A stretch of 64,000 bases of DNA from assembly GCF_002210425.1 (NCBI RefSeq), contig NZ_MWQK01000004.1, positions 372,001 through 436,000 of the forward strand, read 5' to 3'. How positions within the stretch are numbered: position 1 is the first letter of the stretch; each line of letters begins with the position of its first letter. The stretch comes from Fibrobacter sp. UWB2. GTDB taxonomy: Bacteria > Fibrobacterota > Fibrobacteria > Fibrobacterales > Fibrobacteraceae. A program made the position numbers and the translations under genes. Under the pieces are notes generated by a model. That model saw only the letters and a list, made by a program, of their open reading frames with translations. It had not been told where the DNA came from and made no database searches. Below, one piece after another: positions 9,513 to 63,628 of this stretch.

Positions 9513-12500
9513 TCATTCGTTAAAATCAGCTTCCAAAACCTTAATGGCATTAGAATCAATCAATCCAGACAAATATCCATGTGCAGCATATAACAATTCT
9601 GGGGTATGGTCATCAGGCGAGCGTTCAATATCAAATGTAAGAAAAGTCTTAATTTCACATTTTATGGACTTCATGTTTTCAACAATGCTTTTTACATACG
9701 GATTTGCAACAGGAGAAAGGGCGGACAGCATATTACTATCAGCATCTTTGCCATTTTTCTTTTTACGCAAGCGACATAGCGCAATCAAGCATTCTAAACA
9801 TGCAGAATACAATCGATTATCATTCAGATTTTTTTGCTTTTTTAGCTTTGGTGACACCGCAGCCTTTAGCTGATTATTTTTCAAATCATCAAACTGCTTT
9901 TGGATTGCAGTAACAAGGACTCTAGCATCATACGATGTCAAATTGAAGACAAAGCTATTTACACGCCATAACGCAACCGCTAAAATCCTTATTGCGTATT
10001 CCGCCTTTTTAGGGTCCTCAAGCAACGAGAATGTCCGCTCTAATAAATCATTTTGCCATTCCGTAGAACAGTCTCCAAGTGCGTAAGCAATCCAGTTTGG
10101 ATAATCAAAATAATCTGAGACGTTATCTAGAACATTTGTCAGATACGGATAAAACCAATCTGGAATATCTTTATGCATACAAGACAAGAAAAACATAAAT
10201 TCATTTGCTACACATGTAGGGAGTTTTTCTTCTTGCAAAATATTCTTCAATTTTTCTAGTACTTTTTTAGTACCCTCACGGAACACTATGGGACAAGCCT
10301 CATCTTCAATACTTCTGCCGTTATTCCATACCATTATGGCCGGGAATCTGAGAGATTTTGTAAATTCAGTCTTATTCCAATTACGTCCAACAACATGAGG
10401 ATCAACCCCTTGAATTCCTTTACGCGTTTCCATCAAACAGCACCAGACTTTACATCCGACTTGAGGATGTTGCCTATTATCGATGAAACAAATGGCATCC
10501 CTATTTAGACGACTTATATGAAAAAAGAACGCACTTTTATTATCATTCTGGCTTGAAAATGTTGGTTTTGGAGAAAAAGTACGCAGAAGAGTAAAAGTTC
10601 CAGAGTATATAATTTTTGAATATTCCTTAGGCAACCATTCGTCAATCAAATTTGATTTTTTTTCTAAATCACGTTTTTTCACCGCCCGCATATCCGCCCA
10701 AGTATATTCTCGAACAAAATTCGGCACAGGCATATCGTGGATATAATCCTTATGCGACTTATTTTCCCACTTCACGGATACCGACTTAAATTCCGCAGTT
10801 TCTGAAATCGGAATAAATTCCAAATTATACGGAAGCGGATTTCCATACGTATAAGTCAACTTTAAGCGGCATGTTGTTTCTCGTTCAAGAGGCAACGAAG
10901 AATCCTTTATAAACGCAAAATACTTCGAAGATTCTTTATTCGCCCCCTGCGCAAGCGGAAACTCGTAGAATTCTTTACCTATAGGGAAACTGAATTTCCA
11001 CGGAATTTTAATATCTACCGGTCTACCAACAACAGGACGAATGGAAACTATTTCAGGTTCTACAAGAACATATTCCTTTCCTGTAGAATCAACCATACTG
11101 AGCTTTGGCAGAACATCTAGCCACAAAGGAATATCAGGAGTAATTTTCTGCAAACAATCGTATTCAACCGCCCCTACAGACGAGTCGTCATCGGCATAAA
11201 AGACAATCTCTTTTTTCGCTGCTGTTATTTTTTGAAATGAAGTTTTAGATTCAAAATGGAATTCATCAACAGAAAATGAATCTTTTAACAAGTTTGCATC
11301 TAGCGAAGTCAACAAGTGTTCCATATTTTTCGGAACATTTTTTGGCGGGATTATTTTTTTGACATCTTCTCTCGTCACAGACAAACGCTGGAATACAAAA
11401 CCTTTTGTTTCAGGATTTTCCTTTGCTAGTTCCTTATCGTAATTAACTCGTATTTTAGACTTTATTTCATAGTCTTCATAAATCATCCTTACCGAGATTA
11501 CATCGCCCTCATGGAAATTCTTTTGAATATCCTGCAATTTGGTAAACAGGATAGCAATACTCCTTGGTAAAATTTCCGTATTCGAGAACGTCGAATTCAT
11601 GCTAAACTTAAAAGCATTCACACTCGGCGAGAAATCATCTACATCGTCACTGGTGACATAAAGGCATTTGCCACAACACAATTCACCCTTTATGGTTTTT
11701 GCAAAACTGCTACACGCTTTTTCCACATAACTCTTATTATCATCAGAATCCGAATCCGGCAACAATTTAGCATTAAAAATGGAATGAATCGAAAAAGTCT
11801 TATAATCCTTTGATTTTGTATAAATCAATTTTGAATGAGCCGAAGAACAGGGATACCAAATATCCTTGACACATTGAGACTGATGAACAAGCTTTTGTGA
11901 AAAGCGCCCTTTAGATCCATTTCCAAAAGTATAAGAAGGTAAAACCGTGCTAAGGTCAACAGCGGCAACCTCTGTCAATTTCACATCACCATTGACAAAT
12001 TTTTCAGGAACCGCAAACGCTTTATTCGGCAATAGACTATTACATTTATCTTCTGCAAATGAAAATAATTGCGTCACCTCCGAAATTTGAGGAATGCTGA
12101 AATCGTCCAAAGTGTATTTAATCTTTCCCCAAGACGAAGTTTTCATGTACCCGACAAGAGCCGTTTTTTCCGGCATCAAGCTCAGTGACATACTATCAGG
12201 AAAAAGGACCCTTTGTTGAAACCGAACATCATTATAGCGATTCATTTTCGCCACAAAAAGCCAAAAACATGCTGACTTTTTTAACGATTCAAGATGGTCT
12301 AAATCATATTGAACTTGATCATTCAAATTCCGAAGCATCAAGTGAGCTTTCCAGATTTTGCGATAATTCTTATCGTTGAGAAGGGTATTGTTTGGAGGAG
12401 TGTTGTTCCACTTGCCTATCAGCAAAGCCTCATCACTTTTCAGCCATTGGTGTACCGTTGATACAAAACGTTCAAAGTCCTCACTTATGGAAAGTCCACA

Positions 12501-13010
12501 CTTATAGCAAGCATTTTCCTTCTCTAAAAGAACGTCCTCTAAATTTTGCATAAAGACCTTGAACAGGCGATTTTCAGCAGTATCAAGGCTTGTTGTATGA
12601 TACACCCCCATCATGCGCTGTTCAGACGCAATTTTTTGTTTTACAGTAAAGCCAGGCTTTTTAGCAAGCCACATCATGCTTCGGCTATCAACTTCACGTA
12701 CTTGTTCAGGGCGTGTAATCCGGTGCTCACGAATATTTTTTTCATGAAGCAAATCAATCAAATTGCGAACAGCGGTAGAAACAAAGCACACGACATGTTG
12801 CAAGCGGTCATTCTGCCAATCGCACTTTTCTGCATTGACAGAAGAAAGGCCGTACAAAACATCATCAACTGTAACAGGGAGAGGATCATCTGTAACAGGG
12901 TCAAACTCCATTACTGATGAGAACAATCCTACTATAGAAAACAGAAGTTCATACTCTTTTCCATTTCCCGCAGCGATCTGCTTATATATTGTACAAAGCT
13001 CTACCGACAT
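9513..13010 (-). CDS. DUF2357-like large protein (McrC-type N-terminal region), partner of McrB-like ATPase
   Basis: A 1165-residue protein. Around residues 90-170, ITRPEQV.., MMWLAKKPG and YHTTSLDTAENRLFK match the pattern of DUF2357, the domain found N-terminal to the PD-(D/E)XK nuclease in McrC-type proteins encoded next to McrB ATPases. In the remaining about 900 residues I cannot find a convincing nuclease motif (Asp, then Glu-x-Lys). The middle contains beta-rich segments and the C-terminus is helical, perhaps a repeat scaffold. It starts 16 bases after the McrB-like gene and precedes the activator gene by 23 bases. The likely role is the DNA-recognition or effector partner of the McrB-like ATPase; whether it cuts DNA is open. 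Confidence 0.65.
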   Translation of the reverse strand: MSVELCTIYKQIAAGNGKEYELLFSIVGLFSSVMEFDPVTDDPLPVTVDDVLYGLSSVNAEKCDWQNDRLQHVVCFVSTAVRNLIDLLHEKNIREHRITRPEQVREVDSRSMMWLAKKPGFTVKQKIASEQRMMGVYHTTSLDTAENRLFKVFMQNLEDVLLEKENACYKCGLSISEDFERFVSTVHQWLKSDEALLIGKWNNTPPNNTLLNDKNYRKIWKAHLMLRNLNDQVQYDLDHLESLKKSACFWLFVAKMNRYNDVRFQQRVLFPDSMSLSLMPEKTALVGYMKTSSWGKIKYTLDDFSIPQISEVTQLFSFAEDKCNSLLPNKAFAVPEKFVNGDVKLTEVAAVDLSTVLPSYTFGNGSKGRFSQKLVHQSQCVKDIWYPCSSAHSKLIYTKSKDYKTFSIHSIFNAKLLPDSDSDDNKSYVEKACSSFAKTIKGELCCGKCLYVTSDDVDDFSPSVNAFKFSMNSTFSNTEILPRSIAILFTKLQDIQKNFHEGDVISVRMIYEDYEIKSKIRVNYDKELAKENPETKGFVFQRLSVTREDVKKIIPPKNVPKNMEHLLTSLDANLLKDSFSVDEFHFESKTSFQKITAAKKEIVFYADDDSSVGAVEYDCLQKITPDIPLWLDVLPKLSMVDSTGKEYVLVEPEIVSIRPVVGRPVDIKIPWKFSFPIGKEFYEFPLAQGANKESSKYFAFIKDSSLPLERETTCRLKLTYTYGNPLPYNLEFIPISETAEFKSVSVKWENKSHKDYIHDMPVPNFVREYTWADMRAVKKRDLEKKSNLIDEWLPKEYSKIIYSGTFTLLRTFSPKPTFSSQNDNKSAFFFHISRLNRDAICFIDNRQHPQVGCKVWCCLMETRKGIQGVDPHVVGRNWNKTEFTKSLRFPAIMVWNNGRSIEDEACPIVFREGTKKVLEKLKNILQEEKLPTCVANEFMFFLSCMHKDIPDWFYPYLTNVLDNVSDYFDYPNWIAYALGDCSTEWQNDLLERTFSLLEDPKKAEYAIRILAVALWRVNSFVFNLTSYDARVLVTAIQKQFDDLKNNQLKAAVSPKLKKQKNLNDNRLYSACLECLIALCRLRKKKNGKDADSNMLSALSPVANPYVKSIVENMKSIKCEIKTFLTFDIERSPDDHTPELLYAAHGYLSGLIDSNAIKVLEADFNE

Positions 13011-13026
13011 ACCAATTCCTTACGCC

Positions 13027-15696
13027 TTAGTCTTGTTTTGCCTCAGCAGAATCTTTTGCATTCTGCGGATCATTCGAAACATCGTCACGCAGCAAATAAC
13101 CAGATGTTGTCCAAATAAACTGACCATAATTCTGTTCTACCGCATTCTTGAAGTCTTCATGAAGAGTTTCAGGAATAATGCCTTTAATCGCATCCAGCAC
13201 ATCTTTCTGCGTACCGCGAGTTTCAAGACCGCGAAGCTTAGGCATCACCTTCTGCACCAACTGATCTTCAAACGCGTTATCCATAGCATGCTTACGAGAC
13301 GAATCACTTTCAGCAGCAATGACGTCAGGATAAAGCGACATATAGTTTTCAATAGACTGCCAGACACGATGGCCCAAGGCACGTCCCGCCTTTCCAAGCT
13401 GTTCGTTAATCTGTTCGATTTTTTCCTTGTAGCCATTAATGAGGTTGTCTTCAAAATCAACCGCATTCTGCCAAGAGCTCCAATTGGATTTCAACAGAAG
13501 TGGTGCAGGTTCTGCAAGGACGCTATTTTTCCTAGAACGGATTAACGTTTTGGGACGCGGGAAATTAATCACGATTCCGCGGTCAAGAACCTTGTCCGAA
13601 AGAGTCTTTGTCGTTTCGTCGTTATTCATCGTACCCGTCCAAAGAACATTGCGTCCCAAACGAAGCGGAAAATCAGCCATTTTGCTTCCGATTTTCACAC
13701 CAATAAACGGGAACGAGCGATCATTTTCCTTAAGGCCACGACGAGTCTCAAGCTTACTCAAAAAGTCCGCAAAATAAAGTTCAACGTTCGCAAGATTCAT
13801 TTCATCCAAGAGGATCATCGTCATGACATCATTAAGCCCCTGCTGATCATCAACATTACGCTGAGACTGCGCCAGCAAACGGAGCATATCCGTCGGTTCA
13901 AAGCAATTATCAATCGAGTTGTAATAACCAAGCATTGCTTCCTGACAATCCCAGTTCGGTTCCACAGGCATCGAAAGGAAATTGATACCGCCAAAGCGGG
14001 AGTAAAGACGCGGAAGTTCCGACTTACCCGTACCGCTCACGCCTGCAAGCACCGTAAGCGGAGACATTTCAGAAGTTTTAAGAGCCGTATGGAAAGCTTT
14101 AAGAATACGGTTCGAGAAATGGAACCCGCTTTGTTCAATCTTATCATTAATGCCCTTAAGCCATTCCGTTTCCTTAATATCCGCCGATTTATTACGGTCT
14201 AAATGTTCCTTAATCAACGGTTCATTGATAGCCTTGATACGGTCATCACGTTCTGCAGGATTTTCATAAGTCGAGCGAAGACGAGTAAGCTGGTCTTCCA
14301 CAATTTTTTTGTCTTTTTCAAGAGCGTCAATCCTCTGACCCAAAGAATCCTTTTCTGCTAAAGCTTGTGTAAGCTGACTATGCAAAGCCCCACTCTGAAG
14401 AATCTTTTCCGCAACAGCATTTTCACGTTCTACAAGCTTTTCTTTTTCTTCTGCCAAATCAGCCGCAGTTTTCTGCAACGTATAAGACGGTGTATTATTG
14501 ACCTTTTCTAAAGCAAGGGCAAGTTCCTGCTTTACGCGCTGGTAATCCAAAAGGATTTCCGCAGGATTTTTGCCGTCAAATTCAGCCTTAAGGTCTTCGA
14601 ATTTTGCAACAATGCTTTCATTAGCATGGATAGAATTACGCAAAGATGCAGCTTCTTCTTCAATCCGTTTAATCTTGCGATCCTTATCAGCAAGGATTTC
14701 AGAATAACGTTTTTCTACATCATTATCAATATTTTTTTCTCTTTCATCAAGACCCTTAGATTTGACATCATTACGTTTTTCTTTAAAGGAAACAATACGA
14801 TCACGTCCGTCCAAATCATCGTTTTTGGCGTTGAGTTCCTGCTCGCGAGTATCCATCTCAGCAATTTTCTTCGAGAATTCATCAACATTCTTTCCACTCG
14901 ATTCAAGCTGAACCCTGAGAGTTTCAAAATTCGCCATCGTCTTTTCATAAGTAGCAGTAGTCTTGTCGAATTCAGCTTTTTGCTGTTTTAACTCATTGAC
15001 AAGGCCTTGTTTATCTTCACAGAGAGCTTTATTTTGGGCATCAAGTTCCGTATTCTTTCCAGAAAGTTCCGCATTTTCTTTTTTCAATTTTTCAATTTGA
15101 TTTTTTAAATTTTCAGTATCAACTTTTGCAGCATCAATAATTCCATTAGCCTTGCCTTTAGCGTCATTGACAATGCGGTCATATTCCGTTTTTGCACTCA
15201 AGCGAATTTTTTCGGCAAAGTCATTAGCTTCACTCTGAATTTTTTCAGCAGCCTTTTTCGCGTCTTCACGCAACGTTTCACAGTATTCTGTTGCAGAATT
15301 GCGCATTTTCTGAATTTCTTCTTTGGTTTCATTGATACGCTTTTCATGCAAGTCAGCAGCGAGCTTTTCGGCATCCTTAAAAAGTTCAGCCTTCTTCTGC
15401 GCAAGATCGTGAGAAGCTGCGACAAGCGATGCCTCAATCTTTTTAAAAGCCTCTTCTTGGGCATTAAGCGCAATTTTACGAGCCACGACATCAGCCTTTT
15501 GCTCATTAAAGGCCTTAATTTCTTCTTCCGTCGGGATAGACGCTTCGCGGGACTTGTAATTTTCAAGCTGATTATTCAAATCCGTGATTTGATTTTTCTG
15601 TTCATCAATTTTTTTCTTTGATGCATCAAGAAGTTTTTTGACATCTTCCTTAGAGTAAACATTCTCTTCTTTTGTATAATCTTTTTCTTCAGACAT
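13027..15696 (-). CDS. McrB-like AAA+ GTPase/ATPase with long N-terminal coiled coil
   Basis: An 889-residue protein. The start is the ATG at 15696, preceded by GGAG nine bases upstream. Residues 1-490 are almost continuous Lys/Glu/Ala-rich coiled coil with heptad character. The C-terminal third is an AAA+ domain of the McrB/MoxR-related type: Walker A GVSGTGKSE, Walker B MILLDEMNLA, then a sensor region WTGTMNND and DKVLDRG. In McrBC, McrB forms a hexameric GTP-driven motor that works with the McrC nuclease. The coiled coil replaces the usual DNA-binding N-terminus, so it may sense or bridge something else. It is followed by the DUF2357 gene, as expected for an McrB/McrC-like pair. Confidence 0.8.
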   Translation of the reverse strand: MSEEKDYTKEENVYSKEDVKKLLDASKKKIDEQKNQITDLNNQLENYKSREASIPTEEEIKAFNEQKADVVARKIALNAQEEAFKKIEASLVAASHDLAQKKAELFKDAEKLAADLHEKRINETKEEIQKMRNSATEYCETLREDAKKAAEKIQSEANDFAEKIRLSAKTEYDRIVNDAKGKANGIIDAAKVDTENLKNQIEKLKKENAELSGKNTELDAQNKALCEDKQGLVNELKQQKAEFDKTTATYEKTMANFETLRVQLESSGKNVDEFSKKIAEMDTREQELNAKNDDLDGRDRIVSFKEKRNDVKSKGLDEREKNIDNDVEKRYSEILADKDRKIKRIEEEAASLRNSIHANESIVAKFEDLKAEFDGKNPAEILLDYQRVKQELALALEKVNNTPSYTLQKTAADLAEEKEKLVERENAVAEKILQSGALHSQLTQALAEKDSLGQRIDALEKDKKIVEDQLTRLRSTYENPAERDDRIKAINEPLIKEHLDRNKSADIKETEWLKGINDKIEQSGFHFSNRILKAFHTALKTSEMSPLTVLAGVSGTGKSELPRLYSRFGGINFLSMPVEPNWDCQEAMLGYYNSIDNCFEPTDMLRLLAQSQRNVDDQQGLNDVMTMILLDEMNLANVELYFADFLSKLETRRGLKENDRSFPFIGVKIGSKMADFPLRLGRNVLWTGTMNNDETTKTLSDKVLDRGIVINFPRPKTLIRSRKNSVLAEPAPLLLKSNWSSWQNAVDFEDNLINGYKEKIEQINEQLGKAGRALGHRVWQSIENYMSLYPDVIAAESDSSRKHAMDNAFEDQLVQKVMPKLRGLETRGTQKDVLDAIKGIIPETLHEDFKNAVEQNYGQFIWTTSGYLLRDDVSNDPQNAKDSAEAKQD

Positions 15697-15732
15697 AGTT
15701 TTTATCTCCAATTAATATTTAAATTCTTTCTT

Positions 15733-17808
15733 TTAGCCGTTAAACAAATAACTTGTTAAAAATCCATTTTTCGCAAAATAATGAATCAAATCAATTATTC
15801 GTTTTTTTATTTCTAGAGTCCTTTTCTCATCAATAGAATCCGGAATTTCCCCATGAGACCGTTTATGCGCGATATAACATATATCCGAGAGCATTTCACG
15901 CCATTGGGCAGAAATTCCTCGCAACAACTCCGCATCGGCAAGCGTACAAAAAGCGATACAGGCAGCATTCATTGAAGCATTTTTCCTATTCAACGCAGCG
16001 CTAATTTTATCTTCTTTTGTCTTAAGCAACGTTTTAAATACATTTTCTTCAGGAATTACAAAACCAGCACGTTTTACCTTTTCCACCCAACCTGAATTTT
16101 TCAGTTCATCACCAAGACATTCATTTACCGATTTAAACAAATACTCCAAAATTCGATATTGATCAAGAATAATCGCATTATTCAAATTTTCAGCATTCGT
16201 TCCACGGCGTTCCATATCAATAATAAAGCTGATCAAACCCGCATTCAATGCATAGCATAGCGAAAATCCAAGAGAATCCTCCATTCTAGAAATAGCCTCA
16301 TCTCGTTCATTCCGCAAAGCAATCTTTTCTTCAAAAGAAAATTCACTTGCTTCCTTTACCTTGATATTGAGTCCCTTTTGCATCAAAAGAAGAATTTCTT
16401 TGTACGCTTCTTCTACATAGGTAGGAAAATCCTCAATTTTCCCAACAGATCCTTCGTGCATTCCTTGATTGCGTTTTTCATTCAAATCTACAAGGATACA
16501 CAGGAAATCGGGATTTTCGCTTGCAAATTCTTTAAGCCAAGACTCTTGATCTAAAGATATCAGAAGCAAATCCAAAAGAGGTAACAGTTTTGGAGTCTTT
16601 TCAAAGGCATTCCAAAGTTTCCCATTCTTTTGACAGAAAGCTTTCCTCTCATTCAAGCCAACATCAAAACCAAGATTTTGCGCACTTTTAAAAGCCGAAC
16701 TTCCAATAATATGGGTAGACGCTTTGCTATTGAACATTCTTCTATTCTTGTCAAGAACCGTTTTAGCGCAGTACTCATTAGAACGCTTGTGCAAAATATA
16801 GAAGAGGACCCATTCTACAAGTTGAATCAAATAAACTACAGAATCAACCATCGCTGAGCGCAATTTATCTTCCTTGTCTGGAGAATCCACAAACGAATTC
16901 AATTCCTTCATGCATTTCTGTACAGGAACGAGCTTTTCCTTCAATTTGGAGTACCTTTCGACAGACTTGCTTACAGAAGAACTATTATTCGCATTTGTTC
17001 TTACCTGGACACTTTCACGAAGGCTTGCAATATATTTCTTATCAACATCATTCTTAATCCGCTGAACAGAAAAGAACGAAGTCACCTTACCAAAGCCATC
17101 AGTAAACACCCAGTCTCGAGACGAGCCTTCCGGCTGAAAGACATCCATCAAAATCCATCTGAGATTTTTTGACGTATTTTGCTTTTCTTCTACACGCGCA
17201 TAGATTCCGTCTTTACCAGGGTAAAGCTTATGAAGCATCGCTGTAACGTCTTCACTTCGCGGGACAAAATTCAAATTCTTGTCATATTGAAGTTTGTAAG
17301 CGGTTTCAAATTCATCCGATTCGGTTCCTGCTGTCGAGTAACCTTTATATTTGAAAAAAGACCTTCCTGATTCTTCCCACACCTCTTTTCCAAAAGAGTA
17401 ATTAAATCGGTCATTGTCTTCCAACATGCTAAAATAAGGAACGACATCTCCAGATACAGCATCAACATAAACATGTATTGAACTACTGTGATTTTCAATC
17501 ATCTCACCCAATCTTTGTTTGCCAATATCTGTTATCTTGAAACAACCATCAAGGCATCCATGCTGTTCAAGACGCGACTGCATAAAAGAAATAAGATCTT
17601 CTTCTAATCCTGTACTTGAAGCAATATCCTTGATATCAGTCACATTGATATCCGCAAGCCGAAGGATTACCTCTTCGATGATATTTCTCTCATAATCATC
17701 AACACCCGCAGCTTGGGCAATGAACTCAAAACAAGGCCACAAAATTTTTTGGCGTATTCTTACAGGGAATGCACCATTCCATTCTTTTCCACCAATTATT
17801 TTTTCCAT
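15733..17808 (-). CDS. Uncharacterised protein with N-terminal winged-helix-like region
   Basis: A 691-residue protein that I do not assign to a named family. The first about 110 residues (EEVILRLADINVTDIKDIASSTGL and DGCFKITDIGKQRLGE, each a helix-turn-helix then wing pattern) look like a winged helix. This is followed by VYVDAVSGDVVPYF, a strand-turn element also seen after winged helices in some DNA-processing proteins. The C-terminal half is helical with conserved-looking NEKRNQGMHEGS and CYIAHKRSHGEIPDS, possibly histidine-containing helical bundles. Its ATG overlaps the end of the helicase gene by 13 bases, and a 36-base gap separates it from the McrB-like gene. By context it is probably the helicase's partner or DNA-binding subunit. 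Confidence 0.55.
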   Translation of the reverse strand: MEKIIGGKEWNGAFPVRIRQKILWPCFEFIAQAAGVDDYERNIIEEVILRLADINVTDIKDIASSTGLEEDLISFMQSRLEQHGCLDGCFKITDIGKQRLGEMIENHSSSIHVYVDAVSGDVVPYFSMLEDNDRFNYSFGKEVWEESGRSFFKYKGYSTAGTESDEFETAYKLQYDKNLNFVPRSEDVTAMLHKLYPGKDGIYARVEEKQNTSKNLRWILMDVFQPEGSSRDWVFTDGFGKVTSFFSVQRIKNDVDKKYIASLRESVQVRTNANNSSSVSKSVERYSKLKEKLVPVQKCMKELNSFVDSPDKEDKLRSAMVDSVVYLIQLVEWVLFYILHKRSNEYCAKTVLDKNRRMFNSKASTHIIGSSAFKSAQNLGFDVGLNERKAFCQKNGKLWNAFEKTPKLLPLLDLLLISLDQESWLKEFASENPDFLCILVDLNEKRNQGMHEGSVGKIEDFPTYVEEAYKEILLLMQKGLNIKVKEASEFSFEEKIALRNERDEAISRMEDSLGFSLCYALNAGLISFIIDMERRGTNAENLNNAIILDQYRILEYLFKSVNECLGDELKNSGWVEKVKRAGFVIPEENVFKTLLKTKEDKISAALNRKNASMNAACIAFCTLADAELLRGISAQWREMLSDICYIAHKRSHGEIPDSIDEKRTLEIKKRIIDLIHYFAKNGFLTSYLFNG

Positions 17809-20800
17809 GTCAAGACCACTCCATAACCTTCGTCATTTTTTCCATTGCACAAATCATAAAATTCAGCCAAAGCAGGCACCTTTTGAGCCCTCGCCTTTTC
17901 AGATGTCACAAAATCTTTACTTCCAACAGCAATAAGGACTTTTTTCTGACGAGACATACTGACGCAAAGTCTATTGGGAGTAAGAAAATCAATAGCCCCT
18001 GTAGAACGCACAACCGAAAGAAAGACGACATCAAATTCCATTCCCTGGAAAGCATCAACAGTTCCAACCTTGTAAGTCACAGAATCTTTCAATTCCTTTT
18101 TATAACGTCCAAGCTTTTGCAGAATGAGATTTCGCTGAGCGCTATAGAACGTAATGATACCAAAGCTCATTTTCTTTTCTTTAGCAAGATGATTCTGACT
18201 CCGTACAAAATTCATCATAGTCTCGACTATACACTCGGCTTCGCAATCACGAATTCGGCTCGTTCCATGCTTTTCTTCTCTACCGCATTCTTTAGGAACA
18301 TCAATCCAAACCGCAGCCTTATTTTCAATCCCAGGAAGATTGTGTTCAAAGTCGCTCGCCGGTCTTGGAGATTCGTATCCTTCGCCATAAGGCTCATAGA
18401 AAAGACGGGAACAGAAATGTCCTAAAACAGGATGAGTACGGAACTGTTTATCCAATGTAATCGTCCGCTTTATGCCATCCTTTTCCTCTAATTCCTTGAG
18501 TTTCTTGAACAATAGCTCAAAAAGGCTTAACTTGAAAGCATTCTCGTAAGCGTCATTCACATTTTCTGACGACTCCGAAGTGGAATCTTTCTTGGATTCC
18601 ATTTCCTGTTGCGTTTTTTCATAAACATCATTGCAAAGGTCGTCATCAACGAGTTGCGGCAATTGCCTATGGTCACCCACAAGAATAATACGTTTTACAG
18701 CTTTGCACATCGGGATAAGCAAATCGGGAGGAGTCGCTCTAGCCGCTTCATCCACAATAACGGTATCATACAATTTGATATAGGAACTATTCGCCTGTTC
18801 AACAGATTTTTTTTGCTTCGTTATATCCTTTCCAACAGACTGCTGGCTTGTCGCTGCATAAACATAATCACATTCCTTCAATGTTCGGGCAAACGCCTGA
18901 TGCCCCGAACGAAGAGCGTCTACCCAATCTGCAATAATCTGATCCTTTTTACTTTTTTTGCTATGGAGCGACATCAAGAAAACGACAACCTTATTGCATA
19001 AGGACATAACCTCGTCATCAACCTCAAAAGCAAAATATGCAGGTCTTGGGGAAAATTCCTCAAGCAAAATTGATTTCAATTCAGCAAGTTTTTGAAGTTG
19101 TTCTGTCGATGGCGATGCGTTTCCAACAACCAAATCCATTAAAAACGATTCCCATTCTTGATGCCTAGGCAGCCAAATACTTTCAAGCGCAAAATACAAT
19201 TCTTCTACACGCTTTTGTCCATCATCAGAATACGTTTTTTCAGAAGTTCTGATGGAAAGGATTTTTCTAAATAAAGCCTTATCCACAGAAGAAATAGCCT
19301 TATCTTTTCGCAACAAGAGATTTCTCGCTTCAGAAGCAAGCTTTTCTGACACAGGGAGCAAAGCAACATATTCAAGCAAGCTCTCTTTATTTTCTGGTAA
19401 CGGAGATATTCTATATTCGGCAATTTTATCTGCAAAGATTTCTTCGCTATGAGAAATTTCAATATTCGGATGAAGCGAAAGGACTCTTTCTTCAATTTCC
19501 TTACACCAGGAATCTATATGTTCGTTGTAGCTCCCATGAGCGTCACGACGCTTTCCATATTTCCAAGTCGGCAGGGAATTGATGCGAATTCGCTCAATCA
19601 TGTTTTCTACAGCGTCATGCTGATACGACGTTGCAAGGACACGACCCGCAGTGACACCGCGTTTATCCTGCATTTCATTCAAAAGTTCAAGAACAGCCGT
19701 AATGACTGTAGTCTTGCCAGTGCCAGGAGGCCCCTGCACAAGAGCAATTTCAGGAGTAGTCAGAGCCACGTCAATCGCTTCAAGCTGTCGATCTGTTGGC
19801 GGATTCCTAAATATTTTCTCTTGCACACGATTTGAAATATGCATCTTGGAAGGATTCTTACCAAATGACATAAAATCAAAACTGCCTTCCAAAATATTTC
19901 CCAAAAAATTGATGCCCGCACGTCCCGTAGATATCATATCCCAGGCATCCTGCTGTCGATTGATTTGGCTCTCTTCGCCAGTCATGGACATCCAAATACA
20001 GCCTTTCTGAGGAATGTTTGAAATTGTCGGAGCATTTTTATCCGTCGGGAGCGTAAGTTGAATCCAATTACCTTCATAATCGGCAACATCACATACAACT
20101 TCTTCTTGAACTACTTTCTTTTTTGCTTGATTCTCATTTGCTTCTATCGCCTTGCGTTCCTTCGCAGCGAGACTCTTCTTTTCGCAATATTCAAGGAAAT
20201 CACATTTTATATCCTGCATAAAAAGAGGCTGTGCCACATTATTGAAGCAAAGGACCGCTTCTTCGACCGAAGATTCCTTCATTTTTTTAGAAATATTTTC
20301 CTTAAAATAAAGCTTTATGCAGTCTTCAGAAACAGGAGTGCAACGTTCATAATGCAATACGCCGAACTTTCGAGCCTGTTCAAGAATACGATTTCCACGA
20401 GCCGCAGTATATTCGCGCCAAGCCTTTAAATAACTGCCGCTTTTTTCAATCAGATTTTTAAGCTTTTCAAGATTGTATTCAGAAGCCTTTGTTTTCTGAT
20501 CCGAAAAAGAGATGTTCGCCTTTACCAAGTGAAAATTGCAAGCGGGGCGAATATTTTTACGCAAAGCCGTACCGGTTACCGTAAAATATTTTTCAGTTCC
20601 GGTTGAGGTTAAATTTTTCTGTTGCACCTTTATAGCAAAACATTTACCAAAATGACTGCACAGAATTGAAAAAGCGCTACCAATTTCTGTTTTTTCCGGT
20701 TCATCTGAATCATCGGCATTCTCCTCCTGTTCATCATTTGGAGTTTCGGAATCCCCTTGCATGATAAAATAAGATTCACCATCAAGCATCACCATGCAAT

Positions 20801-21209
20801 CTTCAGCAAGCCTCTTTCGGAATTCTTCAACATCTTTGCCTTTTTTATCCTGCAGTTTGCCAAATTTTTCCATTTCTGCAAGAATAGCAACATCGCCAAA
20901 TTCTACAACAGCCCCCGCAAACACATAAAAATCAAAAATAAATTCACCGTCTTTGGAGACCGACTTTACTTCGCATATATGCGCTTGTTTTCTGCGGAAG
21001 CAGAAATCCACATTTTCTTTGTCCTGCTTATTCTTGAAATCAAATTCAACAGCCCGATCTTTCGTCCGGATAATATAGTTATGATGAATGGGATTCGGCA
21101 CGACTGTAAAAGAGCCTACTTTTATGCATGAAGCATCTTTATCAACAACAACCTTTGCTTCAATATTCTCATAAAACGGAACAGTTTCAATATGATTTAC
21201 ATTCATCAT
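17796..21209 (-). CDS. UPF1/DNA2-like superfamily 1 helicase
   Basis: A 1137-residue protein (start taken at the ATG at 21209, which overlaps the kinase stop as TGATG; a GTG two codons upstream also exists). The N-terminal about 450 residues are a beta-rich accessory region. The helicase core carries QGPPGTGKTTV (Walker A), IVDEAARATPP (DEAA box, motif II), GDHRQLPQL (motif III), LDKQFRTHP (motif IV) and VDAFQGMEFDVV (motif V), then SMSRQKK (motif VI). These are the signatures of the UPF1/DNA2/SMUBP-2 group of SF1B helicases, which unwind DNA or RNA 5' to 3'. Such helicases are frequent in defence loci next to kinases and nucleases. It is translationally coupled to the kinase gene upstream. 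Confidence 0.9.
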   Translation of the reverse strand: MMNVNHIETVPFYENIEAKVVVDKDASCIKVGSFTVVPNPIHHNYIIRTKDRAVEFDFKNKQDKENVDFCFRRKQAHICEVKSVSKDGEFIFDFYVFAGAVVEFGDVAILAEMEKFGKLQDKKGKDVEEFRKRLAEDCMVMLDGESYFIMQGDSETPNDEQEENADDSDEPEKTEIGSAFSILCSHFGKCFAIKVQQKNLTSTGTEKYFTVTGTALRKNIRPACNFHLVKANISFSDQKTKASEYNLEKLKNLIEKSGSYLKAWREYTAARGNRILEQARKFGVLHYERCTPVSEDCIKLYFKENISKKMKESSVEEAVLCFNNVAQPLFMQDIKCDFLEYCEKKSLAAKERKAIEANENQAKKKVVQEEVVCDVADYEGNWIQLTLPTDKNAPTISNIPQKGCIWMSMTGEESQINRQQDAWDMISTGRAGINFLGNILEGSFDFMSFGKNPSKMHISNRVQEKIFRNPPTDRQLEAIDVALTTPEIALVQGPPGTGKTTVITAVLELLNEMQDKRGVTAGRVLATSYQHDAVENMIERIRINSLPTWKYGKRRDAHGSYNEHIDSWCKEIEERVLSLHPNIEISHSEEIFADKIAEYRISPLPENKESLLEYVALLPVSEKLASEARNLLLRKDKAISSVDKALFRKILSIRTSEKTYSDDGQKRVEELYFALESIWLPRHQEWESFLMDLVVGNASPSTEQLQKLAELKSILLEEFSPRPAYFAFEVDDEVMSLCNKVVVFLMSLHSKKSKKDQIIADWVDALRSGHQAFARTLKECDYVYAATSQQSVGKDITKQKKSVEQANSSYIKLYDTVIVDEAARATPPDLLIPMCKAVKRIILVGDHRQLPQLVDDDLCNDVYEKTQQEMESKKDSTSESSENVNDAYENAFKLSLFELLFKKLKELEEKDGIKRTITLDKQFRTHPVLGHFCSRLFYEPYGEGYESPRPASDFEHNLPGIENKAAVWIDVPKECGREEKHGTSRIRDCEAECIVETMMNFVRSQNHLAKEKKMSFGIITFYSAQRNLILQKLGRYKKELKDSVTYKVGTVDAFQGMEFDVVFLSVVRSTGAIDFLTPNRLCVSMSRQKKVLIAVGSKDFVTSEKARAQKVPALAEFYDLCNGKNDEGYGVVLTWKK

Positions 21210-22699
21210 CAGCACTTCCCCACAATTTCAACAGAAAGAGTACGAGACCATTCGTTGCGTCCAACACATTTTAAGGCATACGTTTCGCCCTTCCTTATCT
21301 GAAGAATGTAACGACCCGAAATTTTTTCTTCTTTTCCATTTACACCCATAAAAAAGTCACAATTATCCACAAACTGCAATTGCAAAGAAAACTCGATACC
21401 TCTGCCATTATAATTTACAGTACGTACTTTAAAGACTCCACGATAAAAAGTGTTTACATCAAACGGCATAAACACATGTTCTGGCAAAGGAAATTCAGAA
21501 CCAGAATTATCTTCACAAAATTCCAATTCATGAGCAAAGACAACCTTGCCATTTTCATCTTTCAACAGCAAAATCGGAGGATGCTTTTTATCACACCAAG
21601 GACAATTTTTTGCAGATTCATCATACACAAAGCTCATGCCACAATCGGGACAACGCACGCTTTGTGCCTGCGAATGGGCAAACGCTCTTGCCCAAAGAAC
21701 CGACGTAGGTCGAATTTTCGGGTTTTCACGACCTTCTTCTGAGAAAGTCATGTTGAACAAAGTGAAAGTCTCGTCAGTCAAGAAATTCTGCCTAGGCAAA
21801 CCATCATCTGTATGGTTAGAAACATCGCTAAAATCTTCAACCCAAGGAATTTTGCCAGAATATTGTGGATCTATATCAACTTGCTTTTGTTCATCTTCTT
21901 TTTTCGCATCTTTAGCGGTTACATCCCAATCGTCTTCAAAACCTCCAACCTTGGCCATTTTTCCTGCAAACGGATGGAGAGCAGCAAGAGTTTCAAAGGC
22001 TAACGTAGCAAAGGAATACACATCGCTATTTATACTACAGCTTTTCCCCTCAAGTAATTCCGGAGCCGCATAGCGAGGCGTATATACCAATTTCTCAGAA
22101 TCCTCACCAGGAATAAAAACATTGTCTGCATCAATAAGCCAAACATTCTGAGTTGTAAACTTAGGATCTTTTGTCACAAACACATTATTCGGAGACAAAT
22201 CGCAATAGACCATCCCTACACCATGCATTTTAGCCAACAAAGCCGCAAGTTTCGCAAGCAGTTCAAAACGCCTACGGTGTCCACCATCTTCAGACATTTT
22301 TCCAATCGCTTTTTCATCCAAAGGAACAAGGTCAGAAAAACCCGTCATATCACCCATAAGACGCATCACATAGCCAGAATAATCTACAAGGCGAGCCATC
22401 GGATAAGCCAAATGAAGCCTTTCCGGAAATGGTTTTTGCATAATCGCCTTAAAGGCTGCATCATTTTTTAAGAAAGTTTCCTTATTTTTGTCCCTACAGA
22501 TAAGACGACCTTTGGAATCAAGTGCAAACTTTATAACAATCTCAGGATTGCGAGTAAGGCAAACAACACCTTGCCCTCCTTGACCTAGAACTTTAGCGAT
22601 ATCGTGCGAGCAACCATAAGAATCCAGCACACTTCTAATTTCTACAGTATTCCCTTCACTATCACACAAGGGAAAAACATTTTCATCAGCATTTTGCAT
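21209..22699 (-). CDS. Ser/Thr protein kinase with C-terminal zinc ribbon (TerY-P triad kinase)
   Basis: A 496-residue protein kinase. The glycine loop is GQGGQGVV (about residues 39-46), the ATP lysine lies in VIKFA, the catalytic loop is YCDLSPNNVFV and the metal motif LIDADN stands in for DFG. TPRYAAPELLEG is the activation segment end. After the kinase domain comes a four-cysteine zinc ribbon, CPDC-x9-CPWC (about residues 348-364), and a beta-rich tail of about 100 residues. A kinase with this C-terminal zinc ribbon, next to a PP2C phosphatase and a TerY vWA protein, is the TerY-P triad described in Ter-related stress and defence loci. Its ATG overlaps the PP2C stop (TAATG). Confidence 0.9.
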   Translation of the reverse strand: MQNADENVFPLCDSEGNTVEIRSVLDSYGCSHDIAKVLGQGGQGVVCLTRNPEIVIKFALDSKGRLICRDKNKETFLKNDAAFKAIMQKPFPERLHLAYPMARLVDYSGYVMRLMGDMTGFSDLVPLDEKAIGKMSEDGGHRRRFELLAKLAALLAKMHGVGMVYCDLSPNNVFVTKDPKFTTQNVWLIDADNVFIPGEDSEKLVYTPRYAAPELLEGKSCSINSDVYSFATLAFETLAALHPFAGKMAKVGGFEDDWDVTAKDAKKEDEQKQVDIDPQYSGKIPWVEDFSDVSNHTDDGLPRQNFLTDETFTLFNMTFSEEGRENPKIRPTSVLWARAFAHSQAQSVRCPDCGMSFVYDESAKNCPWCDKKHPPILLLKDENGKVVFAHELEFCEDNSGSEFPLPEHVFMPFDVNTFYRGVFKVRTVNYNGRGIEFSLQLQFVDNCDFFMGVNGKEEKISGRYILQIRKGETYALKCVGRNEWSRTLSVEIVGKC

Positions 22700-23424
22700 T
22701 ACAGCCCCGCTACAACAATAGTTTTGTCATCGGTATGGTGCGGAACAGGCCATTTTTCCATCATATTCCGCAAAAAAGCGTTTCGCTTCCAAAAGAACAT
22801 TTTCTTCAATTCGCAGAAAATATCTTCCGCAAATGGAAGTTCCTTCCCAGAATTCATATCTGCGGATATTCCATCCGTCGACAACACAACCCCTTTAAAC
22901 AAAGACCTATCATAAATGGCATACTTAAATTCCCGCACCGCAGAAGAATCCGACAACGAGCAAGTCGCATTAGAAAATGAACCATCCTTGTCATCCGTCA
23001 GTGCAACACTTTGAGAAGACTCCTTGCCCAATAGGCAAATCATGCCATCTCCAAGTCTTGCGGTCAATATTTTTGTTTTCGTTGCAAATACAAAAAGGCA
23101 TGTTGCAGAGCATTCTTTTACATCGTGAGGCAAAACCGACTTTTTCCATTGTTCAACAACATTCTCAAACAACTGAGAAATCGGATAAGACGAATGCTTG
23201 TTTTTTACAAAGAGCTCAATTTCCTTGGCCACAGACATGCACGCCATCTTTGAACCTAAATCAGAATAAGGCTTGCTCCCCATACCATCAGAAACAACGA
23301 AGAGAGAATACTTTCTTTTTTTCAGGTACAAGAACGCATCTTGATTGACAATTCCATGCAACACATGGGACGGCCCCTTAACGCTTGCGCCACATACAAA
23401 TTTTTTTCCAAAGCAAAACATCAC
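22699..23424 (-). CDS. PP2C-type protein phosphatase (TerY-P triad)
   Basis: A 241-residue, single-domain Mn/Mg-dependent phosphatase. Metal-binding motifs are visible: NQDAF near residue 27, VVSDGMGSKPYSDLGSK (residues 43-59), TARLGDGMICLL and VLSTDGI. It has no transmembrane segment and so acts in the cytoplasm. It would remove phosphate from targets of the adjacent kinase, giving a reversible switch. It overlaps the upstream vWA gene by four bases (ATGA) and the downstream kinase gene by one base, so the three proteins are probably made in fixed proportion. Confidence 0.9.
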   Translation of the reverse strand: MMFCFGKKFVCGASVKGPSHVLHGIVNQDAFLYLKKRKYSLFVVSDGMGSKPYSDLGSKMACMSVAKEIELFVKNKHSSYPISQLFENVVEQWKKSVLPHDVKECSATCLFVFATKTKILTARLGDGMICLLGKESSQSVALTDDKDGSFSNATCSLSDSSAVREFKYAIYDRSLFKGVVLSTDGISADMNSGKELPFAEDIFCELKKMFFWKRNAFLRNMMEKWPVPHHTDDKTIVVAGL

Positions 23425-23867
23425 CAGCCCTCTTCTTCGGTAGAACAGTCTTGTTGACTCATCAAAATTTCCACGGTCTTCAATACATCTTCAGCAAGAA
23501 CCACATTCAAGCTTGAAAAAAACTTATAAGCCGAAACATCCATGGCATCACCGCCACAAAGAACGAGATACAAAGAATCTTTTGAGTTTTCTATAAAATC
23601 TTTTATGACGCGCGACTTACAACATGAATCAGCCAAAGAATAGGCATCCGTCAAAAGCAGTGTTTTTTTCTCGTTGCACTTTTCAATTAAAGACTCAAAT
23701 TCGTTCGCACTGCCGTCCCACTGTATTTTTTCAACAGTAATCCGATCCGTCTCATCAGCCAATTTTTCACAAGCAGAAAGAGTCTGCAAAATATTGCCAA
23801 CAATTAATGGCTTACCCATGGCATACATACTGCCAGAAACATCAACAATAACATACAGCTCTTTCAT
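23421..23867 (-). CDS. Small von Willebrand factor A (vWA) domain protein
   Basis: A 148-residue protein consisting of a compact vWA domain. It has a complete MIDAS start motif DVSGSM (residues 9-14); the second Asp appears in LLLTDAYSLAD. vWA domains with MIDAS bind metal-dependently to partner proteins. Next to TerY, PP2C and kinase genes, it is probably the second vWA component seen in some TerY-P loci. It follows the TerY-like gene by 17 bases and overlaps the PP2C gene by four. Confidence 0.75.
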   Translation of the reverse strand: MKELYVIVDVSGSMYAMGKPLIVGNILQTLSACEKLADETDRITVEKIQWDGSANEFESLIEKCNEKKTLLLTDAYSLADSCCKSRVIKDFIENSKDSLYLVLCGGDAMDVSAYKFFSSLNVVLAEDVLKTVEILMSQQDCSTEEEGW

Positions 23868-23884: not shown

Positions 23885-24577
23885 TTACAGATCTAAACCG
23901 AATTCTTTAGCCAAGTCTTCCAAACGTGCAGGCGTATTACTTGCAGCAGGCAGAAGAGCATTGGGATTCTGCGAACGGCTGCGGACAGAAACGCTCATCG
24001 TCACAAACTTGAAAAAGTCACGAATCTGCGTTGCCTGATCTGCGCGGAACACCTTGTTTTCCGTGCCGCTGAGGAACTTGTTCAGAACGTCGTCTGCCTC
24101 TGTAGTCCCAATAGCCATGGCAAAGCGTTCACACTTCGAGCTACGACCCGAACCAATAAAAGCCTGCATGGCATCTTTCCAATCATCGTTAGGCTCTCCA
24201 TCCGAAACAAGGACCACAGCAGGGCGGTAACCGCTAGAAGGGATAATAGACTTGTCTTCAAGCATATCCTTCGCCATGCGAAGAGCGGCACCCATCGGAG
24301 TGTTGCCATTTGCGTTCAAACACAAAAGACTTTCAATATTCTTTGCAGGCTGCAGCGGGACATCGTAAGTAGCTCCGCCCACACCAAAACTGATAACGGC
24401 AACATTGATATCAACCTCACCCTGACCAGCCGTCTTAAAAGATTCGATCATTTCGTTGACCGATGCATTGAGCTGGTTGATTTTGTTGCCGGACATACTA
24501 CAACTGCGATCAAGCAGCAGAATCACAGGAAGCGGGCGAGCTTTGGCAACGGTATACTTAGAAGGATCAAATGCCAT
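23885..24577 (-). CDS. terY: TerY-like vWA domain protein
   Basis: A 230-residue vWA protein closely matching the TerY pattern: RPLPVILLLDRSCSMSGNKI with MIDAS DRSCSMS (Cys where Gly is usual), NTPMGAALRMA carrying the MIDAS threonine, and VLVSDGEPNDDW carrying the second Asp. The C-terminal about 35 residues are a Ser/Asn/Pro linker and short helix. TerY proteins are cytoplasmic scaffolds in tellurite-resistance-type and phage-defence gene clusters. It is the first gene of the nine-gene operon, with AGGAG eight bases before the ATG and a sigma-54-type promoter at 24623-24638. Confidence 0.85.
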   Translation of the reverse strand: MAFDPSKYTVAKARPLPVILLLDRSCSMSGNKINQLNASVNEMIESFKTAGQGEVDINVAVISFGVGGATYDVPLQPAKNIESLLCLNANGNTPMGAALRMAKDMLEDKSIIPSSGYRPAVVLVSDGEPNDDWKDAMQAFIGSGRSSKCERFAMAIGTTEADDVLNKFLSGTENKVFRADQATQIRDFFKFVTMSVSVRSRSQNPNALLPAASNTPARLEDLAKEFGLDL

Positions 24578-24622
24578 AATAAAATCTCCTTTATGTTATG
24601 GTCAAAATTACACTTTTTCAAA

Positions 24623-24638
24623 TGCAAAATTCATGCCA
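24623..24638 (-). promoter_or_regulatory. Sigma-54 (-24/-12) promoter of the TerY-McrB operon
   Basis: On the minus strand the sequence reads TGGCATG-AATT-TTGCA; consensus is TGGCACG-N4-TTGCA. The GG and GC pairs are separated by exactly ten bases, as sigma-54 holoenzyme requires. Transcription should begin near 24612, about 35 bases before the TerY start codon. The presence of a GSFTGA-containing activator in the same operon supports the call. Confidence 0.8.
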
Positions 24639-24696
24639 AGTAAAAAAATGCCGTTTTTACGGGAAAATCAACATTTCTGCAAAACCAATATTTAAT

Positions 24697-24737
24697 ATAC
24701 GTAATATTTTTCTTTTAAATGGAAAAATTTTTCGTAT
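24697..24737. promoter_or_regulatory. Candidate enhancer (upstream activating site): 15-bp inverted repeat
   Basis: Arms ATACGTAATATTTTT (24697-24711) and AAAAATTTTTCGTAT (24723-24737) are inverted copies with 13 of 15 positions matching, separated by 11 bases. It lies about 85-125 bases upstream of the predicted TerY-operon start, the usual distance for a sigma-54 activator site. The AT-rich arms mean chance similarity cannot be excluded. Confidence 0.5.
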
Positions 24738-24863
24738 TAAACAAGCAACACACCATAGTTCTTTTTTCCAAAGATATCTGACGCCCCAGAAAAGTCCCCT
24801 TTTTGTTCAAAAAACGACACCTTATTCATTATTTCAAACAAGAGCCCAACATTAGCTGCAATT

Positions 24864-24879
24864 TGGCACGCATTTCGCT
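24864..24879 (+). promoter_or_regulatory. Sigma-54-like promoter facing the HicA-like gene
   Basis: TGGCACG at 24864-24870, four bases, then TCGCT at 24875-24879. The -24 element is perfect, the GG-to-GC spacing is the required ten bases, and the -12 element has one change (TCGC for TTGC). Predicted start near 24890, about 30 bases before the ATG at 24921. Confidence 0.6.
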
Positions 24880-24920: not shown

Positions 24921-25127
24921 ATGCAGCCTTACATTTCCAACAACAAAGACATCCGCGATTTCGTCCTAAACATCTTAAAGTCCAAAAAATGGGAAATCGC
25001 ACGTCACGGCAAGCACGTCATCTTGCGACACATTGAAGAAGGAGCAAATAAGATATTCTCTGTTCCATGCACTCCAAGCGATTCCAGAGCTTTTTCAAAC
25101 TTCTGTAGAGACTATATCGCTACGTAA
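24921..25127 (+). CDS. Small HicA-like (dsRBD-fold) protein
   Basis: A 68-residue protein with AGGAGAG seven bases before the ATG. KKWEIARHGKHVILRH resembles the core of HicA-type mRNA interferases, in which a Gly-x-His motif carries the catalytic histidine. VPCTPSDSRAFSNF resembles the TPSDxRAxxN ending of phage-borne HicA-like proteins. No HicB-type antitoxin is adjacent, so it may not be a toxin. It sits behind the plus-strand sigma-54-like promoter, which would tie its expression to that of the divergent TerY operon. Confidence 0.5.
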   Translation: MQPYISNNKDIRDFVLNILKSKKWEIARHGKHVILRHIEEGANKIFSVPCTPSDSRAFSNFCRDYIAT

Positions 25128-25214
25128 GAGAATTTCTTATCCAATCCGGCAAGATTCAAAACAGCATTGCCTAAAAACTCCCAACATGGGAAAACTTTTA
25201 TAGAGGATTCTTAT

Positions 25215-25478
25215 ATGACTAGAAACATGCCTGAGATTATCAAAAAGGCACACGCCGCTTCCTTCCAGAACAGAGGGCTCGTAAAAAGATCCCAGATGTG
25301 CGGCTGCTTCTTTTGCTGCAAAACATTCCCCGCATCAGAAGTAGAAGACTTCTGCATCGACAGGGAAGACCTGACAGCGTTATGCCCATACTGCGCTATT
25401 GACTCTGTCATCCCTGACGCTTCCGGATGGCCTGTAGACGCAGCATTCATGAAAAAGATGAAGCGCTACTGGTTTTAG
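25215..25478 (+). CDS. Small Cys-rich conserved protein (putative zinc binder)
   Basis: An 87-residue protein starting at the ATG at 25215 (GAGG eight bases upstream). It has two cysteine clusters, CGCFFCCKTF and LCPYCAIDSVI, with the pattern CxxC...CPYC of a widespread family of about 80-90-residue uncharacterised cytoplasmic proteins. Zinc binding through these cysteines is likely by pattern. It follows the HicA-like gene by 87 bases and ends just before a strong terminator, so the two may share a transcript. Confidence 0.7.
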   Translation: MTRNMPEIIKKAHAASFQNRGLVKRSQMCGCFFCCKTFPASEVEDFCIDREDLTALCPYCAIDSVIPDASGWPVDAAFMKKMKRYWF

Positions 25479-25499: not shown

Positions 25500-25533
25500 G
25501 CCTAAAATAGGTAACCTATTTTAGGCAATTTTT
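25500..25533 (+). terminator. Rho-independent terminator
   Basis: A perfect 12-bp stem, GCCTAAAATAGG (25500-25511) and its complement (25515-25526) with a three-base loop, is followed by AATTTTT. It lies 22 bases after the stop of the Cys-rich protein gene and separates it from the convergent phosphatase gene. Confidence 0.85.
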
Positions 25534-63474: not shown

Positions 63475-63612
63475 CAGCGTTTCAAAAAATTCCTTAAATA
63501 TTTGCTTTTGAAACGATTGCATGTTATTTTTTGAACAAGCAGGAACACTTATTGTTTTTGATTTTTAGTGAATTTTGCTTTTGGGGAATATTTAAAGTTG
63601 GTTTTCCTTTTT

Positions 63613-63628
63613 GGCACGCAGTTTGCTT
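63613..63628 (+). promoter_or_regulatory. Sigma-54 (-24/-12) promoter
   Basis: TGGCACG (63613-63619), four bases, TTGCT (63624-63628): a full match to the consensus TGGCACG-N4-TTGCW with exactly ten bases between GG and GC. The predicted start is near 63640, about 45 bases before the ATG at 63684. A cognate activator site was not identified. Confidence 0.85.

Follow-up and report, generated by a model that had tools for sequence, protein, structure and literature searches.

The segment at 24697-24879 of the window, by which we mean the whole 64-kb stretch of DNA analysed here, is very probably a sigma-54 control region acting in both directions, through which an inducible antiviral module is run by the CARF-AAA+-HTH activator that is encoded in the module's own operon. 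The promoter and its upstream dyads exist, are non-random and track the activator across genomes and effector types, as shown by computation, and we infer binding and activation by this protein, positive feedback and a ligand.

The operon and its sigma-54 promoter

The operon comprises nine minus-strand genes running from 24577 to 8071 (16.5 kb), with overlaps or gaps of at most 23 nt between them:

23885-24577, minus: terY, VWA protein, first gene (PF00092, 2.6e-14; PADLOC TerY, 2.7e-5)
23421-23867, minus: second, shorter VWA-like protein (vwa2), named from position and sequence, with no family match
22699-23424, minus: PP2C phosphatase of the TerY-P triad (PF13672, 4.1e-38)
21209-22699, minus: Ser/Thr kinase of the TerY-P triad, with a zinc-ribbon-like C-terminal CxxC region (PF00069, 1.2e-11)
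17796-21215, minus: CnuH-like SF1 helicase, PADLOC MkoA (PF13087, 6.4e-32; MkoA, 6.9e-95)
15733-17808, minus: CnuE-like protein with two HEPN motifs (sequence motifs; weak MkoB match)
13027-15711, minus: CnuB-like coiled-coil McrB-type GTPase (PADLOC PDC-M26A, 4e-31; Walker A and MNxxD read from the sequence)
9513-13010, minus: CnuC-like DUF2357 protein (PF09823, 1.7e-11)
8071-9489, minus: CARF-AAA+-HTH sigma-54 activator of the RtcR_PspF1 type, last gene (PDLC01994, 5.8e-173; PF00158, 9.1e-38)

The passages of PMC11090510 define Type III-A CoCoNuTs by a CnuE that carries a pair of HEPN motifs, RxxxxH plus RxH near the C terminus. In the CnuE-like protein of the window, RNQGMH at residue 446 fits RxxxxH and RSH at residue 650 fits RxH; both are kept in G072, the genome with the closest orthologue, where the second VWA-like protein also has an orthologue (69%). 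The remainder of the gene set is present as well, namely a McrB-type CnuB with a coiled coil, a McrC-type CnuC assigned solely by its DUF2357 domain, the helicase CnuH and the TerY-P triad. By these published criteria, the operon is a predicted CoCoNuT of Type III-A that includes a TerY-P triad.

The last gene encodes a protein that the PADLOC model RtcR_PspF1 (CARF_AAA_HTH, PDLC01994) spans over residues 3-472, its full length; PF00158 lies above the Pfam cut-off and Cas_Csm6_CARF (E 1.2e-4) below it, and the score for RtcR proper (NF038308) is 188.7 bits against an equivalog cut-off of 650. Its sigma-54 contact loop reads GSFTGA, a variant at position 2 of the GAFTGA found in several orthologues. 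We looked for a clear sigma-70 promoter upstream of the activator gene and found none, which counts against the model, since an activator whose sole promoter depends on sigma-54 would still need a basal supply.

The region in front of terY, together with the divergent unit beyond it, contains the following features:

24623-24639, minus: sigma-54 (-24/-12) promoter TTGGCATGAATTTTGCA of the TerY/CoCoNuT operon (direct reading; score 0.98)
24697-24716, minus: proximal dyad AAAAGAAAAATATTACGTAT of the operator (UAS), 20 bp, centre about -94
24718-24737, minus: distal UAS dyad ATACGAAAAATTTTTCCATT, 20 bp, consensus ATACGAAAAATTTTTCGTAT, centre about -115
24697-24737, no strand: inverted repeat of the initial annotation (13/15), consisting of the outer half-sites of the two tandem dyads
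24863-24879, plus: second, divergent sigma-54-like promoter TTGGCACGCATTTCGCT, with TCGC for TTGC in the -12 element
24921-25127, plus: HicA-like small ORF, 68 aa (PF07927, E 1e-3, below the Pfam cut-off)
25167-25478, plus: small Cys-rich ORF, 103 aa, of no family, with a homologue directly behind a UAS/sigma-54 promoter in G094 (L041)
25500-25526, plus: terminator-like hairpin at the end of the divergent unit

The initial annotation had read a minus-strand sigma-54 promoter with GG and GC ten bases apart, and direct reading bore out both the letters and the spacing: in TTGGCATGAATTTTGCA, read from 24639 to 24623, GG lies at 24637-24636 and GC at 24625-24624 with 10 bases between, in agreement with the consensus YTGGCACG-N4-TTGCW with GG-N10-GC. 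The pattern TGGCAYGN4TTGCW has 22 exact matches in the 3.53-Mb genome, TTGGCATGAATTTTGCA among them, as opposed to two for the reversed control pattern, and such elements are therefore in use in this genome, which encodes an rpoN-type sigma factor (Sigma54_DBD, PF04552, E 1.6e-50). Judging from the promoter position, transcription would start near 24613 on the minus strand, giving a predicted 5' leader of about 35-36 nt up to the terY start codon at 24577. Equivalents of TTGGCATGAATTTTGCA were found at the operon starts beside orthologous regulators. Elsewhere in the window, another full-score sigma-54 promoter match, TTGGCACGCAGTTTGCT, lies at 63611-63627 on the plus strand, without the UAS listed above.

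A probable tandem-dyad operator that follows the activator

The inverted repeat that the initial annotation had proposed as the operator is indeed present, with arms at 24697-24711 and 24723-24737 matched at 13 of 15 positions; it could be lengthened to 14 of 16, and it lies at -84 to -124 relative to the predicted start near 24613. Since the relatives carry two full dyads 20-21 bp apart, we dropped the single inverted repeat, and the operator is probably better read as two tandem 20-bp dyads. In the window these are 21 bp apart and together form a 41-bp site, of which only the outer arms are conspicuous because each dyad alone is imperfect.

The 20-bp palindrome ATACGAAAAATTTTTCGTAT was derived by comparing the first activator loci, the window site among them. 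In the 3.53-Mb genome, a 20-mer with up to three mismatches to ATACGAAAAATTTTTCGTAT occurs only at the window locus. When the matrix came from other loci, the window site reached 30.7, whereas none of 1000 dinucleotide shuffles went above 19.3; a matrix trained without its own genome (G000) and G072 gave it 35.2. These scores are somewhat optimistic, since the consensus used to choose the training positions had itself been taken in part from the window site, and the dyads are A/T-rich, so that A-tracts could account for part of the similarity. With the matrix lacking G000 and G072, none of 20 other sigma-54-like sites in the genome exceeded 7.3 and the next best place in the window reached 14.3; in 270 kb, the 11 highest-scoring tandem sites all belonged to activator-associated promoters. 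When leave-group-out matrices were used with a dyad spacing of 20-22 imposed, 16 of 18 promoters exceeded all 1000 dinucleotide shuffles; G039 and G090 were weak in this test (7 and 11 of 1000 shuffles), and at these two loci sigma-54 promoters were present and convincing tandem dyads were not found. A scan without imposed spacing returned dyad pairs 20-21 bp apart in G000, G072, G094 (three promoters), G015 and G045. The G045 locus contains a perfect 20/20 match to ATACGAAAAATTTTTCGTAT, 90 bp upstream of the sigma-54 promoter beside its activator; the palindrome had been fixed from the first loci before this match, which is free of position-picking bias.

We then searched 201 genomes with the combined pattern GAAAANNTWTTC-N53..83-TGGC-N7-TTGC. 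As a result, 22 matches were obtained, compared with six for the reversed control; ten adjoin an activator, covering 7 of the 11 activator-bearing genomes, and the other 12 are scattered, three of them being one shared sequence. When all the fetched matches were rescored, a strong sigma-54 site accompanied by tandem dyads was seen only beside the activator. The UAS alone was rejected as a genome-wide search key, being near background at up to two mismatches, and pairing with the sigma-54 element was required.

The activator has 12 orthologous copies, its own included, in 11 of the 201 genomes (35-100% identity), and their surroundings vary. G072 has the same operon as the window with the activator last; in G094 (copy 1) and G078 a distant TerY-P/CoCoNuT-like operon has the activator divergent; helicase operons with the activator last are found in G037 and G015; and in G094 (copy 2), G045, G006, G057, G039 and G090 it lies in other operons. 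The G094 activator is 93% identical to that of the window, while its operon proteins are only 24-39% identical; with such an activator a matching UAS is expected under our hypothesis, and both UAS and promoter are indeed kept. Conservation of the repeat next to the operon in relatives, which the initial annotation had set as a test, was likewise found, for example beside the G072 orthologue. Promoter and dyads thus follow the activator orthologues across effector operons and gene orders, as computation shows. Behind the sigma-54 promoters of G045 and G090, the first ORFs are small, similar and unclassified (L046:1890-2174 and L047:113-451; 94 and 112 aa).

The protein side varies in parallel with the DNA sites. 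In the alignment, all eight activators that have this UAS share the stretch C[TS][ST]KTLQN in the recognition helix without variation, and it is altered in G090, G006, G057 and G039, the four with diverged or weak sites. The G037 activator (L042:396-1805) is chimeric: its CARF domain is 83% identical to that of G015, which has the same helicase system, and 58% to that of the window, whereas AAA+ and HTH show 91% identity with the window activator and 77% and 68% with those of G015. This chimerism suggests that sensor and effector system move together and that the DNA-binding part is exchanged separately.

In the loci examined outside the activator family, no conservation of the UAS sequence was seen, and the matches to the promoter were weaker. 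Weak sigma-54-like sites stand 53-55 bp ahead of the first gene in Pseudomonas composti and on two Vibrio plasmids, where the dyads are different and uncertain, and in Pontibrevibacter no such site was found before the first gene; a set of 80 loci matched mostly via the common AAA+ domain and was little informative. The helicase operon of the relatives resembles plasmid operons of Vibrio and Pontibrevibacter, in which a four-gene unit of helicase, hypothetical protein, PLD-like protein and CARF activator is present; P. composti has similar-sized genes in the same order (these loci being L203, L205, L206 and L103). A Klebsiella plasmid (L204) retains an IS-interrupted remnant, and a type III-B CRISPR locus is found nearby in Vibrio aerogenes.

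A divergent promoter, rival explanations and a proposed switch

The plus-strand promoter at 24863-24879 is an addition to the initial annotation, which had missed it. The UAS is common to both promoters, lying 145-166 bp from TTGGCACGCATTTCGCT, and the two divergent promoters were also detected as an inverted repeat (I3). The same divergent arrangement with the same TCGC variant occurs in G072 (L043:2624, minus), and divergent promoter pairs around a shared UAS occur in G037 and G015. G078 and G094 carry the HicA-like gene at another place in the island, with a UAS and sigma-54 promoter of its own in front; these second sites, L040:5227 (minus) in G094 and L045:13936 (plus) in G078, precede HicA-like genes that are non-divergent from the main operon. 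Since a HicA-like gene with UAS and promoter is found in several relatives, it is a recurrent partner. We call it HicA-like only, because PF07927 gave 19.6 bits against a cut-off of 27. In the window the frame ends early (68 aa versus about 92 aa in relatives), so the gene may be non-functional here; its sigma-54 promoter and UAS are kept.

Three other accounts of the region were weighed. The operon might be run by an ordinary sigma-70 promoter, the sigma-54 match being fortuitous. Two sigma-70-like matches do lie between the sigma-54 site and terY, but two are what shuffling predicts (2.2), the better match has its end within the start codon, and beside the activator the sigma-54 element is conserved in position whether the operons are orthologous or not, which makes this account extremely improbable. 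The A/T-rich dyads could also be a repressor operator or a nucleoid-protein or bending site instead of an activator UAS, as would suit their A-tract composition and the AT-rich AAAACGS-type element that also lies 18-29 bp upstream of 6 of 17 activator-associated promoters, as against about 1.5% of 70-bp window tiles. Yet, at about -90 to -120, dyads paired in tandem at a distance of two helical turns recur only beside the activator family and are absent from 20 other sigma-54-like sites of the genome, so that we consider such a role very unlikely. The AAAACGS-type element itself, seen at promoters in the window, L040, L042, L045, L046 and L049, is a possible bending site; present at only 6 of 17 promoters, it was set aside as an extra element between UAS and promoter.

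A different sigma-54 activator might use the UAS while the CARF protein works elsewhere, and the genome does contain at least seven other AAA+ activator matches. The relatives have those activators too, yet no tandem UAS with a sigma-54 promoter was found in the absence of the CARF activator, and regulator and UAS move together between arrangements; we give this possibility hardly any weight. The initial annotation had the repeat bound by the RtcR-like protein encoded at the operon's end, acting on a sigma-54 promoter. This claim is supported in its main part, because promoter and dyads follow the regulator, and was revised by replacing the single repeat with tandem dyads and by adding the divergent promoter that shares them.

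Under control by the operon's own activator, the CARF domain would sense a ligand, perhaps RNA ends with 2',3'-cyclic phosphate by analogy with RtcR, or another CARF nucleotide. The activator would assemble on the two tandem ATACGAAAAATTTTTCGTAT-like dyads, 21 bp apart and about 94 and 115 bp upstream, and its GSFTGA loop would contact the sigma-54 polymerase waiting at TTGGCATGAATTTTGCA, so that the promoter opens. This would induce terY, vwa2, the PP2C phosphatase, the kinase, the helicase, the HEPN protein, the McrB-like GTPase, the DUF2357 protein and, as last gene, the activator, which would raise its own level in a positive feedback; the UAS would also drive the weaker, divergent sigma-54 promoter toward the HicA-like gene. 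Sigma-54 promoters are silent until triggered and respond in an all-or-nothing manner, and such control fits a potentially self-harming HEPN system.

On a broader reading, about which we are evenly divided, activator, tandem UAS and sigma-54 promoter would form a portable CARF-sensor switch for unrelated defence operons (the Type III-A CoCoNuT/TerY-P operon, the second TerY-P/CoCoNuT-like type and the helicase operon), in which sensor and AAA+-HTH part are exchanged independently of each other and co-induction of the HicA-like gene adds a second, growth-arresting layer of defence. The divergent HicA-like gene hints that the same alarm may govern another effector as well. The tandem site and promoter provide a DNA signature for regulon finding and a read-out for the CARF ligand.

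Comparison with known systems

In UASs of the NtrC/PspF type, a pair of dyad sites stands about 100 bp upstream, with a few helical turns between them. The window UAS has a similar layout, with its own sequence code, and is coupled to a CARF sensor and defence genes.

The RtcR/rtcBA circuit (rsr-yrlBA-rtcBA), as described in passages of PMC9650030, PMC7790460 and PMC9879122, likewise combines a CARF-AAA+-HTH activator, a sigma-54 promoter and an upstream enhancer, and in Salmonella the toxin-antitoxin pair dinJ-yafQ lies within the sigma-54 transcript of this circuit (PMC9879122). In these accounts, rtcR is divergent with its own sigma-70 promoter and the target is RNA repair, whereas the family studied here would control defence operons and the activator is often the last gene.

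The operon also resembles the RtcR-associated CoCoNuT superoperons of PMC11090510, which in the passages of that paper combine a CARF/RtcR-like activator with CnuB, CnuC, CnuH, CnuE and TerY-P; there the CARF gene is at the 5' end, while in the window operon it is 3'-terminal. UAS-mediated RtcR-type regulation of CoCoNuTs was predicted there in 2024, with cyclic-phosphate RNA ends proposed as ligand by analogy with RtcR, and the 41-bp tandem site with its promoter makes this prediction testable in a simple reporter. The passages of PMC11090510 give no UAS sequence or sigma-54 promoter for the superoperons, and the open literature searched, judged by titles, abstracts and passages, yielded no operator or sigma-54 promoter for RtcR-like-controlled CoCoNuTs. 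Relative to those passages, what appears to be new here is the identification of the putative UAS, the promoter and the divergent HicA-like target.
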